Shown piece by piece: positions 31,843 to 36,268 of a DNA stretch of 64,000 nucleotides. The translations under genes were made by a program, and so were the position numbers. Below the pieces are notes generated by a model, which was not told the DNA's origin, searched no databases, and was given only the letters and a program-made list of their open reading frames with translations. This DNA comes from Marinimicrobium hydrolyticum. GTDB taxonomy: Bacteria; Pseudomonadota; Gammaproteobacteria; Pseudomonadales; Cellvibrionaceae. The stretch covers positions 62,001 to 126,000 of the forward strand of contig NZ_JAVDDU010000003.1 of NCBI RefSeq assembly GCF_030848505.1, in the 5' to 3' direction. Positions within the stretch are counted from its first letter, which is position 1. Every line of letters starts with the position of its first letter.

Positions 31843-31878
31843 CCGGCGCAAAGGAAGCACGCAACCTCGAATGGAGGT

Positions 31879-31910
31879 ATAAAAAACCCGGCGGAAGCCG
31901 GGTTTTTTAT
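31879..31910. terminator. Bidirectional terminator between the GH5 and GGDEF genes
   Basis: ATAAAAAACCCGGC and GCCGGGTTTTTTAT form a perfect 14-bp stem with a GGAA loop. It serves the GH5 gene on the plus strand and the SBP-GGDEF operon on the minus strand. Confidence 0.93.
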
Positions 31911-31932
31911 AGGGGGGCCTTTTCGCTAGATG

Positions 31933-33657
31933 TTAAGCCTTATCGTAGTACGCCGATTTGCGCGCGTACATGGCTTGGTCGGCACGCGTGATCAGCTCGT
32001 CAATCGGCGTGTGCTCAGTGGTCGCGAACCCTAAACTATAGGTGATTGGGTGACTGAACGAACCGGAATCCGTCTCGAGCGTCAAACTCAGCGCCGACTC
32101 CGTCGCGACCAGACGCCGCTCCAATGCACGAGCAGACGCTTCTCCCGCACTGCGCAACAGAATGTAAAACTCGTCTCCGCCCACCCGTGCCACTAAATCT
32201 TCATCCCGGCAGATTTTCGACAGATGACGCGCCACGGCAACAATTAATTGGTCGCCCGCTTCGTGGCCATGATTGTCATTAATCGGCTTCAGGCCGTTGA
32301 TATCAAGCACCATAATGCCAAAGTGGTAACGGCCATCGGCTTTGCATCGGTTTACCTCAGCTGCCAATGCCTGTTCAAACGCGTGGCGATTGGCCATTTG
32401 GGTCAGGCTATCGGTTGCTGCCATTTTTTCCAGCCTCTGATTGAGCTTATCCAGTAACGCCAAGTTGTCTTCCAACTCCCGGGTGCGCTCTGACACGGTT
32501 GTTTCCAGATTGCTTTTTATGGTCAACAATTCATCAAACTGCTGGCTGATTTTTCCGGACATGGTATTCATCAGGTCGACGGTTTCCCGAAACTCGCGGA
32601 AGCGCATGGTATTGCTCACAGGTTCGTAATTACCCTGTGCCAACTGATGCGTTAGCCGATTGAGAAAACGCACCGGACTCACCACTCGCCGGCTGAGCAG
32701 CACCGACGTAATCACGGTAATAATCACCAGCGCTATGATGATGAACAGAGAAGTGCGAAAAGCGTCGTAAACAATGGCCAGCTGAATCGACATCGGTTGC
32801 GCCAGTTCCAGGCGCAAAGGTTGATCGGTAATTAGGCCAGTGAATTCAATTGCTGCGGTTTCAGTCACCAGATCGCCTTCACCCAGATTACTGTGTCGGG
32901 ACAGGACTTGGTCGCCCAGTAAAAACGCCACCGACATGTCCTGCTGAACAATCTCCGGCAGCGATGTGATCGCTTCTCTGACCGCTGCCAATGGAATCGT
33001 GGCAACCAGTAAGCCGTTAAGTTGTATAGAGCGCGTGCCGGTGCCTTCAGAAGCGACGATGGCACTGGTAATCACCAACACCTTGTTAGCGCCCTCTTCG
33101 TCTACTACACCAACAACCGGGACGCGATTCAGCTGCGCCAGGCCCACATGATCTGCCAGGAAAACGCTTTGGCGCAAAGTATCGACGATCGACAAGGGAC
33201 GCACCAATGGGTGCAATTCGGGCAGTTCGGCCAAATCGATCGTGATCCCCTCTTCGGGCACCGTCTCCATCGCAAACAAGTCCCGATCGAGAACGAAGGC
33301 GGCATTGACCATCGGGTAACGCTCAATAAACTGTTCAATCTGTTCAACAGCCCGGTGCCCGAGAAAACTACCGCTCGCCGCGCGAATCACCGGCACTTGC
33401 TGAGACAGACTGTCGAAGTCATGCAACAAATTCAGAAGCGATTGCTCGATTTCGAGCGCCGACTTTTGTGCTGTCAAACTCAGCTGCTCGCGCGCTGACT
33501 CCAAGGTCGAATCGTAGATGCGGTGCAGAAAGTACACTGACAGCAAGAGCATCGGCAGTAGCGACCAAAGCACGGCCACCTTGACCAAATAGGACTGGAA
33601 CAACGGGTGACGCAGTTTCCGCTTGGGCGCTGAAGATTGATGCGCGGGCAGATTCAT
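31933..33657 (-). CDS. Membrane diguanylate cyclase with periplasmic sensor domain
   Basis: A 574-residue protein that should make c-di-GMP from two GTP. Helix 1 (about 25-45) and helix 2 (about 303-321) bracket a 255-residue periplasmic region with dCache-like features (HDFDSLSQQVPVIRAAS, PMVNAAFVLDRDLFAME). A HAMP linker (about 322-375), a coiled coil (375-412) and a GGDEF domain follow. The active site is intact (GGDEF 493-497, DINGLKPINDNHGHEAGD), and the inhibitory I-site RxxD is present (R484-D487). Its ATG directly follows the stop codon of the tandem binding protein (TAAATG), so the two are tightly coupled and the binding protein is the likely ligand-presenting partner. Confidence 0.92.
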   Translation of the reverse strand: MNLPAHQSSAPKRKLRHPLFQSYLVKVAVLWSLLPMLLLSVYFLHRIYDSTLESAREQLSLTAQKSALEIEQSLLNLLHDFDSLSQQVPVIRAASGSFLGHRAVEQIEQFIERYPMVNAAFVLDRDLFAMETVPEEGITIDLAELPELHPLVRPLSIVDTLRQSVFLADHVGLAQLNRVPVVGVVDEEGANKVLVITSAIVASEGTGTRSIQLNGLLVATIPLAAVREAITSLPEIVQQDMSVAFLLGDQVLSRHSNLGEGDLVTETAAIEFTGLITDQPLRLELAQPMSIQLAIVYDAFRTSLFIIIALVIITVITSVLLSRRVVSPVRFLNRLTHQLAQGNYEPVSNTMRFREFRETVDLMNTMSGKISQQFDELLTIKSNLETTVSERTRELEDNLALLDKLNQRLEKMAATDSLTQMANRHAFEQALAAEVNRCKADGRYHFGIMVLDINGLKPINDNHGHEAGDQLIVAVARHLSKICRDEDLVARVGGDEFYILLRSAGEASARALERRLVATESALSLTLETDSGSFSHPITYSLGFATTEHTPIDELITRADQAMYARKSAYYDKA

Positions 33658-35958
33658 TTAGTCTCTCATCCGGCGGTTGTCGCGCTCGAGCTCACGCGCG
33701 ATTTCGCGCTCAGCCAAACGCTGCATAAGGCTCGACGCCTCGGCGCCCGTGGCTAACCCAGCCTGATGCCGAAAAAAGCCCCGCACTATGGCGCCCCAGG
33801 CATGAGACATGGCACTTTCACTGGGTATCGGGCGAGCCTGTTCGAGCTGTTTGAACACGGTCGCCAGATGCTCATCTGCATTGTCGCGCGCGTAGCTGAT
33901 CGCGCTACGCTCTACGGGCAACACCCGAAATTCATCGACCAACTTTTTTTGAGCTTCGGCGCTTAGGGCGTAGTTCAGAAATGCCATCATGGCGTCGTGT
34001 TTAGGCCCCTGCAGCCCGTGTTGGGGAAAAGCGAAAACCTGAGTTGAATAGGGAGAGATTAGGGTCCGTCCATTCAGGCTCGGTAGAAGAGCAACCCCGA
34101 GCTTGTCCCCCAATTTGGACGCGTATTCTTGCAGCGCCCAGTCGCCATCGATGGTATAGGCCGCCTGGCCAGCAACAAAGGCGCCATGGGCACAAGGGTA
34201 GTCGCACTCGGTATCGACGATCCCCTGCTCCGCCAGCCACCGGTAGTTATCCAGCCCTTTGGCCATGGCCGGAGTATTCAGAGTCAGCTCGTGGCCATCC
34301 ATGGGCATTCCCCCATGGGCAGCGACATAGGGCATCAACCAGTACATAGCCTTGTAGTGCCAGGTGATGGGGATAACACCCTTTGCAGCAAGCGCCGGCG
34401 CTCGTTCTATCAATGACGCCCAATCGCTCGCCGGCTCATCAACATGATCCTTGTTGTAATACAACAACAGATGATTGCCCTGGGTCACCGGCGCGCCATA
34501 ATAATGCCCATCGGCTAAACCCGTATGCCAAAGCTCATCGTTAATGTTGTGGGGAATGCGCTCGCGATCAATCCGACTGTACTCCATATAGCGGTGCAGA
34601 CCGATGTGGTCCGAAGGAACCATCACAATATCCGGTGCAATCCCCTTATCGACCATATTGATTAGCTCGACCTTAATCTCGTCCTGATGAATCCAGCGGT
34701 GCTCGACCTCAATGCCGGTCTGGGCGGTAAAATCGGCGATAAATTCGAACGTCTGGGGCTGCATCCCAAATGTGTACACCAGGGTTAGAGGGTCTGGAGC
34801 GAGCTCCCGATTGATTAGGCGCAATATGATATCGGCGGTCTCCTCGGCACTGACGACTCCGGCCTGATAACGCAGCCAGCCTTTGCGGATAGCATCCCAA
34901 ACTCGCACCGTGGCTTTTTCTGCGGGCAGAGGAATGGCATGAGGCAGCGCCTCGATAACGGTCTTCAGGTTGGTGCCGGCATTGGCCAGGGTGTAAGCCT
35001 GAGCCTCGGCCTCCACTGGCAACACCTTTAGTCGATCGGCTAGGCGCTTCTGTATTGGCGGACTCTGCAAGTAATTAATCAGCGCTCGTAGAGCCGCTTT
35101 ATGCGGGCCATTGAGGCCGTCGCCCGGAAACACTAGCACGTGTGCCGAGTAAGTGGATCGCATCGGCTTGTCCGCCAATGCTGGCAGTGCGGACACTGCT
35201 AGGTTTTCGCCCAGCGCCTCTTGCAGCTGGCCCAGAGCCCAGTCCCCATTGATGGTGTAGGCCACCTCGCCGTTGCGGAACCGGCGCAGGGCACAATCGT
35301 CATCGCACTTGGGGTCAACCAGTTGCGCCTCGGCCAGCGCTCGGTAGTCGCTCAGCCCCCGGACCAAGGCGTCACGTTCGAGCTTAAATTCAAGCTCATT
35401 GGAGGCGGACGCATGCGCCAGCAGGAAAGGCGCCATCCAGTACATGCCCTGATAGTCCCAGGCAATGGTGTCGAAGGGTTGCGCACCGTCTCGGCGCTGC
35501 CATTCATGCAGCGCCTCCCAGGTGGTGGCCGGGGCATCCACCAACGCCCGGTTGTAGTAGAGCATCAAGTGGTTACCCAGCATCAAAGGTGCGCCATAGT
35601 AGCGATCCCCCACCCGAGCTGTTTCCCAGGCTTGCGCTTTAATGGTATGGCTAAGTGATGCAGGAATGATGTGACTGAGCTGAAAGTCCTCGTGCATACC
35701 AGCGTAGTCATTGGGCACAAGGGCAACCTCTAGGCCGCTACGGTTGGCGCTGGCCTCGTGCAGCACATCCACCATCTCCGACAGGGAAACCCAGCGGGTG
35801 CGCACGGCAACACCGGTTTCCTCAGTGAAGGACTCAACCAGATCGAGTAGGCCCTGCTGCTCATAAGAGTAATAGAAGGTCAGTTCGGTGGCGAGGGTTC
35901 GAACTGGAAGTAGCGCGCTGCCCAGTGCAACAGCAAAGCTGAGCCAGAAACGGATCAT
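33658..35958 (-). CDS. Tandem (two-domain) periplasmic solute-binding protein coupled to a diguanylate cyclase
   Basis: A 766-residue secreted protein (signal peptide about 1-23, ending VRTLA) made of two homologous MalE-like solute-binding modules, about 25-386 and 390-760. The halves align along their whole length: DRYYGAPLMLGNHLMLYYN / GHYYGAPVTQGNHLLLYYN, AYTINGDWAL / AYTIDGDWAL, KVLPVE / RVLPVE. Each has a CxxxC pair (C218/C222 and C585/C589). No ABC permease or ATPase gene is nearby, so transport is unlikely; presenting ligands to the adjacent GGDEF sensor is more plausible. The start is the ATG at 35958, with AGGTG nine bases upstream; an in-frame GTG lies at 35970. Ligands unknown, possibly sugars given the island. 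Confidence 0.88.
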   Translation of the reverse strand: MIRFWLSFAVALGSALLPVRTLATELTFYYSYEQQGLLDLVESFTEETGVAVRTRWVSLSEMVDVLHEASANRSGLEVALVPNDYAGMHEDFQLSHIIPASLSHTIKAQAWETARVGDRYYGAPLMLGNHLMLYYNRALVDAPATTWEALHEWQRRDGAQPFDTIAWDYQGMYWMAPFLLAHASASNELEFKLERDALVRGLSDYRALAEAQLVDPKCDDDCALRRFRNGEVAYTINGDWALGQLQEALGENLAVSALPALADKPMRSTYSAHVLVFPGDGLNGPHKAALRALINYLQSPPIQKRLADRLKVLPVEAEAQAYTLANAGTNLKTVIEALPHAIPLPAEKATVRVWDAIRKGWLRYQAGVVSAEETADIILRLINRELAPDPLTLVYTFGMQPQTFEFIADFTAQTGIEVEHRWIHQDEIKVELINMVDKGIAPDIVMVPSDHIGLHRYMEYSRIDRERIPHNINDELWHTGLADGHYYGAPVTQGNHLLLYYNKDHVDEPASDWASLIERAPALAAKGVIPITWHYKAMYWLMPYVAAHGGMPMDGHELTLNTPAMAKGLDNYRWLAEQGIVDTECDYPCAHGAFVAGQAAYTIDGDWALQEYASKLGDKLGVALLPSLNGRTLISPYSTQVFAFPQHGLQGPKHDAMMAFLNYALSAEAQKKLVDEFRVLPVERSAISYARDNADEHLATVFKQLEQARPIPSESAMSHAWGAIVRGFFRHQAGLATGAEASSLMQRLAEREIARELERDNRRMRD

Positions 35959-36268
35959 GGCGTGCGGCACCTATCGTTATGCTCTTCTTCAACAGAGAAA
36001 AAGAGATCGTTTGTCTGTGTCCGTTGCCAGGGGGTGGAGGTGACGACCTGTCGTATTTTTCATTATTTTGCCTGTCACACCAGTCCGGTGCAAGCTCGGC
36101 ATTGGCCGCTCATCCTTCAAACGACTCAAGGTGTTGCAACCCCGAGCCTGTACTAAGTATAGCTGTTGCTCGCCCAAAGAAAAGCCCGGCTTCGGCCGCC
36201 TGGTTGCTCCGCTAACGTGAGCAACCAGGCGGCCGAAGCCGGGCTTTTTCGGCTTTCAATACTCGCCG
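35959..36268. other. 310-bp gap holding a long perfect hairpin; no gene
   Basis: Upstream region of the tandem binding-protein operon and downstream region of the MFS operon. The only clear structure is the 30-bp inverted repeat at 36180-36248. Confidence 0.6.
36180..36248. terminator. Unusually long perfect hairpin (30-bp stem, 9-base loop)
   Basis: AAAAGCCCGGCTTCGGCCGC (36180-36199) continues to TGGTTGCTC and pairs without a mismatch with GAGCAACCAGG...GGGCTTTT (36219-36248). The flanks are A/T-rich, so it can act as a bidirectional terminator after the MFS operon, but the stem is two to three times longer than usual. Confidence 0.85.

Follow-up and report, generated by a model that had tools for sequence, protein, structure and literature searches.

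A tandem MalE-like binding protein encoded directly before a membrane diguanylate cyclase in Marinimicrobium hydrolyticum: a probable two-pocket receptor

Does a binding protein built from two MalE-like modules serve an importer, or does it act on the diguanylate cyclase that is encoded directly after it? The question is raised by a stretch of 64,000 nucleotides from Marinimicrobium hydrolyticum (assembly GCF_030848505.1, contig NZ_JAVDDU010000003.1, positions 62,001 to 126,000), called the window below, in which the gene for a tandem solute-binding protein abuts the gene for a membrane protein with a GGDEF domain. On the basis of sequence comparison and structure prediction, the tandem protein is probably a periplasmic two-pocket receptor that docks on the sensor region of the adjacent cyclase and changes its output of cyclic di-GMP (c-di-GMP). 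A preliminary description of the locus had likewise taken the binding protein to act on the cyclase and not on a transporter, and both the pairing seen among relatives and the permease content of the genome support this. The features of the tandem gene, in window coordinates, are as follows.

33658..35958, minus strand: tandem MalE-like solute-binding protein, 766 residues (reading of the open reading frame, domain matches, structure model)
34801..35898, minus strand: N-terminal binding module, residues 21–386, the longer branch (38% identity to the other half; PDB 6ffl, E=2.4e-19)
33661..34800, minus strand: C-terminal binding module, residues 387–766, the shorter branch (maltose-binding fold, structure match to 6ffl)
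35293..35307, minus strand: CxxxC of the N-terminal module, C218 and C222, a family feature (sequence reading, alignment)
34192..34206, minus strand: CxxxC of the C-terminal module, C585 and C589, a family feature (sequence reading, alignment)

The reading frame has 766 codons and is free of internal stops; an alternative GTG start 12 bases upstream would give a protein of 770 residues. Inspected by eye, the N-terminus appears to be a signal peptide. Residues 21–386 and 387–766 are 38% identical across 365 columns (E=2e-81), which confirms the earlier claim of two complete, homologous MalE-like modules in tandem. Each half matched SBP_bac_8 and SBP_bac_1 above the cut-offs, the top NCBIfam match of the protein was MalE (in two stretches, under the curated MalE cut-off), and solved maltose-binding proteins aligned to both halves in a PDB sequence search. 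The model of the C half matched the solved MalE domain 6ffl with VIA Z 42.2 and a root-mean-square deviation of 2.5 over 362 aligned residues. The N half was modelled with lower confidence and was hardly covered by the fold search, probably because the rows of the alignment lie on the C half; the MalE-like fold is assigned to the C half by predicted structure and to the N half by sequence. The CxxxC pair described for each module is present, yet it is common to the family: it occurs in 75/82 single-module relatives, the seven without it all being from Aeromonas, and the two aligned cysteine columns hold C in 81/82 and 74/82 relatives. Among 66 family-conserved positions, the N half keeps 52 and the C half 58 (14 and 8 lost, respectively). 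These counts over relatives, and those for the pocket below, omit loci L088 and L139 and two outgroup rows.

The partner gene and its domains are the following.

31933..33657, minus strand: membrane diguanylate cyclase, 574 residues, whose start codon abuts the tandem-gene stop (open reading frame, domain search, model)
32767..33522, minus strand: periplasmic sensor region, about residues 46–297 (kinase-trained profile, E=5.8e-35; dCache_1, E=0.022; model)
31951..32421, minus strand: GGDEF domain with intact GGDEF and RxxD (Pfam PF00990, E=4.2e-37; VIA Z 22.6 to 6d9m)

The TAA of the tandem gene touches the ATG of the cyclase gene without a gap (GACTAAATGAAT), just as the preliminary description had it. 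Its claim of an intact GGDEF motif and I-site also holds, with GGDEF at residue 493 and RxxD at 484–487. Pfam reported no EAL domain in the cyclase at E≤0.1, and the GGDEF domain is single. The HAMP domain that had been described stands in part: Pfam reported none at E≤0.1, and what speaks for it is a model with two helices and a break at 341–353, together with weak HAMP matches at the corresponding place in three relatives, L054, L078 and L089 (E about 0.002).

Relatives of the binding protein were sought with a 10-row alignment in one genome per species, and 80 of the 156 obtained were kept. They come mostly from marine Gammaproteobacteria, and the 80 loci hold 81 binding-protein open reading frames (ORFs) of 270–430 residues (L089 has two), none of them two-module. 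In 76 of the 80 loci a same-strand ORF starts at most 250 bases after the binding-protein stop; the commonest spacing, measured with the first possible start codon, is a 4-base overlap (32/76). A local domain search recognised the output of 62 of these 76 partners, comprising 23 GGDEF, 32 histidine kinase (HK) with REC, 5 HK and 2 HK with REC and GGDEF, and Pfam found a kinase-type ATPase in 10 of the remaining 14 and SpoIIE in 2. A recognised signalling output is therefore present in 74/76 partners, among which L113 is uncertain (the ORF lies 164 bases off, and a divergent gene on the other side holds the sensor match). At L075 the kinase is spread over two ORFs, and L125, which has no partner ORF, is truncated by the end of the contig. 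The comparison thus supports well a reading of the relatives as pairs of a binding protein and a sensor with exchangeable output.

Some loci are worth noting individually. A SpoIIE phosphatase is the output behind the same binding-protein and sensor arrangement at L103:165-3202 and L110:4893-7927. The pair at L051:3646-5559 looks broken, with a binding protein of 188 residues and a cyclase split into ORFs of 242 and 209 residues. At L189:103-5518 the genes for a single MalE-like module, for a Peripla_BP_5 binding protein unrelated to it and for a GGDEF-EAL protein stand in a row.

The periplasmic parts of the partners are homologous across output types. A profile trained on residues 1–300 of 37 kinase partners matched all 24 GGDEF partners, counting the cyclase of the window as the 24th, and at E<1e-3 it matched none of 29 GGDEF decoys from the same genome (29 of its 38 other GGDEF matches). 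The reverse profile, made from the GGDEF partners without that of the window, matched 36/37 kinase partners, with L119 at 0.013. When 150 neighbour ORFs were compared with the sensor profile, six matched: five were partner ORFs relisted with another start, and the sixth was the divergent kinase-type protein of L113 (892 residues). The kinase profile also matched the partner in five of eight further loci, and 26 of 29 additional loci, some from organisms that are also in the training set, have a profile-matching ORF within 1.5 kb.

The sensor is not readily assigned to a known fold. For the window, dCache_1 scored 14.7 bits against a cut-off of 45 (E=0.022); across 62 of the 79 sensor stretches, chosen by omitting near-duplicates and L139, L075 and L113, 23 matched dCache_1 at E≤0.1, the best at 7.1e-7. 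Structure searches with the cyclase model were dominated by the GGDEF part and not the sensor, and a PDB search with the sensor profile yielded two TlpA sequences (E=0.12) and a designed protein (E=2.3). In most cases, then, the periplasmic part stays with the binding protein and the output in the cytoplasm varies, and this co-occurrence is the main reason for proposing that the tandem protein and the cyclase work together.

The tandem protein might instead be the receptor of an ordinary ATP-binding cassette (ABC) importer whose permease is encoded elsewhere. Its MalE fold and best family names would fit such a role, and a related genus has more distant modules in one chain with MalF-type permeases. 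The genome (3.99 Mb in 30 contigs, 99.83% complete) argues otherwise. It contains 11 matches to the importer-permease family PF00528 in 10 proteins, and none of the 11 falls in the window, so that the statement that no ABC permease lies nearby holds. Their best names, several of which are best matches under the curated cut-off, are OppB, OppC, a sulfate/phosphonate-type double permease, four of nitrate/taurine type, PstA, PstC and ModB; none of the 11 has MalF or MalG as its best name, which was the check proposed for a cognate permease. Besides the tandem, SBP_bac_8 is found in two proteins of the genome, the binding protein of the double permease and a protein encoded beside a chemoreceptor, and SBP_bac_1 adds one further protein, near the ModB gene.

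Nor do the relatives adjoin transporters, the other finding that was to count against the preliminary description. Signalling genes neighbour them instead, and importer permeases, sought with one MalF-type query, occur at only 2 of the 80 loci, L072 and L091; those of L072 are PotB and PotC, accompanied by their own PotD. At least 4.5 kb is spanned on both sides in 57 of the 80 loci. On the permease content of the genome and the neighbourhood of the relatives we rejected a transport role for the tandem protein, and consider an importer with a distant permease very improbable.

We also note that the MalE-type protein beside the chemoreceptor gene (contig C30, L055:5069-8305; 407 residues) is encoded 9 bases before an MCPsignal chemoreceptor of 667 residues, at a locus with no permease match. 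This pair is likely to be a binding-protein-gated chemoreceptor.

The origin of the tandem was examined with a careful tree of 32 modules picked from 88 rows, and with a wider quick tree that omitted L094 and L125. The two halves are sisters (99/92) within a clade (99/94) shared with L046, L047, L058 and L062, each of which precedes a GGDEF gene. Because all four other members of the clade do so, the duplication most likely arose in a receptor that was already coupled to a cyclase. The end branch of the N half is 1.68 long, against 0.73 for the C half, and the tree program flags the placement of the N half as unsure.

A second fused tandem was found neither in the 80 loci nor in 144 genomes of the family, 390 of the order, 369 of the class and 398 of the phylum, nor in 345 genomes of another family and 116 of a third; these samples overlap partly and their E-value limits differ. 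The longest other open frame among the matches listed had 453 codons (class, phylum and the two other-family samples), and the copy in the window is the only fused tandem seen in the genome samples scanned. The family sample includes one other genome of the genus, 86% complete, which gave no match. Two kinds of candidate were rejected. Nineteen long ORFs (747–859 residues) gave no second full module match, three of them having short stray stretches, and a plasmid match, H1, which covered 91% of the query, proved to be one module of 1.06 kb that matches both halves. The long ORFs (L010–L026, L028 and L029) come, in 18 of 19 cases, from one genus of the same family as the window; the four that were read consist of a binding module and a MalF-type permease, and at the six loci inspected the preceding ORF contains an ATPase P-loop.

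Two separate MalE-like genes before one kinase gene are found in Colwellia sp. 12G3 (L089, on the same contig as L221) and in genome G1332 (L222).

L221:1358-5735: unfused double-receptor locus (gene order, same family code)
L222:1744-6082: unfused double-receptor locus (gene order, same family code)

The two copies are 37% identical in Colwellia sp. 12G3 and 35% in G1332. Between the two organisms the sensor-proximal copies are 60% identical and the distal copies 42%, so that the copy next to the sensor is the more conserved, as is the C half in the window. This arrangement is the unfused counterpart of the tandem.

Pocket positions were mapped by eye from the alignment to Escherichia coli maltose-binding protein (MBP), using what we take to be the numbers and roles of its pocket residues (Y155, W230, W340, E153 and others). 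At the positions of MBP D65, E111, Y155, F156, W230, W232 and W340 the residues are D, N, Y, W, W, L and W in the N and C halves alike; the R66 position has H in the C half and Y in the N half, and the E153 position A and G, respectively. With 7/9 mapped pocket or neighbouring positions identical, there is little to support the earlier statement that the surroundings of the pocket differ between the halves. The positions aligned to W230 and W340 are W in 82/82 relatives. Fold, aromatic positions and neighbouring genes make carbohydrate the most likely class of ligand; the plant-polysaccharide products suggested earlier as signals are putative. Among receptors of this type in the same bacterial family, L046 is adjoined by an alpha-amylase gene, in L050 the second gene upstream encodes a GH11 xylanase, and L054, whose binding-protein gene is truncated by the contig end, has an MFS_2 transporter and a GH43 gene downstream of the kinase. 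L047 is adjoined by a carboxylase gene and not a carbohydrate gene, and the ORF lists of L049 and L052, which were not domain-scanned, show no carbohydrate-type neighbours. These bacteria are generally rich in genes for carbohydrate degradation, which makes the argument from neighbourhood weak.

In the mechanism that we propose, the tandem protein would be exported to the periplasm, where one or both of the MalE-like clefts would bind a small solute, carbohydrate being the likeliest class. The protein would then dock on the periplasmic sensor of the membrane cyclase, and docking would change the c-di-GMP output. The tandem protein would descend from a receptor with one module that was coupled to a cyclase before its gene duplicated in frame. 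The ancestral docking role would probably have stayed with the C-terminal module, and the N-terminal one may have diverged to add a second pocket, another contact with the dimeric cyclase, or a modulatory domain. Across 75 relatives (L139, L075, L113 and L094 omitted), divergence from the C half follows divergence of the sensor (Spearman 0.44) and divergence from the N half does not (0.015); the comparison is exploratory, the pairs not being independent. Docking by the C half is favoured because its divergence, and not that of the N half, follows the sensor.

The main differences of interpretation concern what the second module does. The two modules could bind different solutes and the cyclase integrate both, a dual-ligand or coincidence receptor. 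The halves agree in 66/99 family-conserved columns and in 71/265 elsewhere, the two fused domains of CdgH differ in specificity, and Colwellia sp. 12G3 and G1332 retain two separate adjacent receptor genes before one kinase. Set against this, the mapped pocket is nearly the same in both halves, with two differences among nine positions, and we regard two ligands as possible but on balance doubtful. Somewhat less likely still is a bivalent bridge, in which a single tandem protein would use two related surfaces to reach both protomers within a cyclase dimer and so fix a 1:2 complex. GGDEF enzymes are known to act as dimers, and in the model few residues separate the last helix of module 1 (371–386) from the first strand of module 2 (391), but the lack of any relation between N half and sensor divergence points to a single docking module. 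The N half could also be a decaying, functionless by-product of the duplication, in keeping with its longer branch and its greater loss of conserved positions. Its open frame, the retention of the mapped aromatic positions and of both cysteines, and the 52 of 66 conserved positions that it keeps make this improbable. A broader proposal, which we put forward only tentatively, is that a doubled separate MalE-type receptor integrates two inputs (two ligands, or a ligand and the state of the cyclase dimer) for one cyclase. Such a receptor would represent, in fused form, a design with two receptors per sensor that evolved on more than one occasion within a broad family of sensors gated by binding proteins, whose outputs (GGDEF, kinase or SpoIIE phosphatase) are exchangeable.

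Several observations weigh against docking of the tandem protein on the cyclase, or against details of the account given here. Some relatives depart from the pattern: at L139 the binding protein is followed by a RibD_C protein, L088, L106 and L115 lack a partner ORF, the sensor profile misses the partner in L188, L189 and L190 (3/8 further loci), and L199, L209 and L212 (3/29 additional loci), which have short flanks, show no profile match. The sensor of the window is itself distant, with 24% identity to the nearest. The double permease, which has its own binding protein, weakly matches MalF (E=6e-6) and MalG (E=6e-7), far below the cut-offs. In the tree, a grouping of the C half with L046 and L047 to the exclusion of the N half stays unrejected (p-AU 0.078). 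At the position of MBP E153, 76/82 relatives have an acidic residue (E or D), and because both halves have lost it the ligand of the tandem protein may not be that of the family. Finally, the carbohydrate reading is drawn from fold, aromatic positions and neighbourhood, and is tentative. We nevertheless hold docking on the cyclase to be the probable function.

Two hairpins lie on either side of the gene pair.

36170..36262, minus strand: long near-perfect hairpin upstream of the tandem gene (folding, -74.1 kcal/mol)
31875..31925, minus strand: terminator-like hairpin after the cyclase gene (folding, -22.2 kcal/mol)

Both came from folding, and a simple terminator scan reported neither. The upstream hairpin is likely to mark the end of the preceding operon, and since hairpins flank the pair on both sides, the tandem and cyclase genes probably form their own transcription unit. 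On the same strand upstream lie genes for an MFS transporter, a GFO/IDH/MocA oxidoreductase and a xylose-isomerase-like protein, and the upstream hairpin separates these sugar-related genes from the tandem gene. On the plus strand, on the far side of the cyclase gene, a GH5 enzyme that carries three CBM10 stretches is encoded, as is a sugar porter. The GH5 enzyme had been called a mannanase; the GH5 domain and the CBM10 stretches are there, and specificity for mannan is only putative.

To our knowledge, most cyclases have no known signal. The genome has 39 GGDEF matches, that of the window included, and for one of these the pair proposes a receptor, a soluble protein that makes the signal testable. 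The family as a whole keeps the receptor type and the sensor module and changes kinases, cyclases and phosphatases, providing natural domain swaps for the control of output by a docked receptor. The double receptor and its unfused Colwellia counterpart would allow a direct test of what the second module contributes.

Among known systems, NspS of Vibrio cholerae is reportedly a single PotD-like module, and PotD is absent among the five NCBIfam matches of the tandem protein at E≤0.1. NspS-MbaA is described as a separate periplasmic binding protein encoded beside the membrane c-di-GMP enzyme that it controls, and association of the receptor with the enzyme can set c-di-GMP output (PMC8967002). 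The window resembles it in having a receptor gene directly before a membrane cyclase gene, in a genome with no maltose-named permease. It differs in that NspS binds polyamines and MbaA has GGDEF and EAL, whereas here a MalE-like tandem is paired with GGDEF alone.

Covalent duplication of the receptor had been thought to lack precedent, a claim that does not survive comparison with CdgH and BvgS. CdgH, also from V. cholerae, has two covalently joined binding modules that differ in ligand and feed one diguanylate cyclase (PMC5431781). Its modules lie within the cyclase chain and bind amino acids, whereas the tandem of the window forms a protein of its own, of the larger MalE type. In BvgS the modules, which reportedly belong to another module family, are fused to a histidine kinase. 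The likeness lies in tandem periplasmic Venus flytrap modules in a sensor (PMC5431781). Tandem modules in one chain are thus common to these proteins and the window; fusion to the enzyme is not, the tandem having its own ORF and its own stop. GlnPQ resembles the tandem in its two joined substrate-binding domains with different ligand specificities (PMC8025302), but is tied to an ABC importer and serves transport rather than signalling.

In the open-access literature, judged from titles and the starts of abstracts, which is weak evidence, we found no description of a cyclase partnered by a separate tandem binding protein, and none of a sensor family with exchangeable outputs. The kind of system is known, and the separate fused tandem and the exchangeable-output family are, to that extent, apparently undescribed. 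The direct kin of the tandem are the single MalE-like proteins paired with GGDEF, kinase or SpoIIE partners, which share its binding-protein family and a homologous sensor, and which have one module where the window has two.

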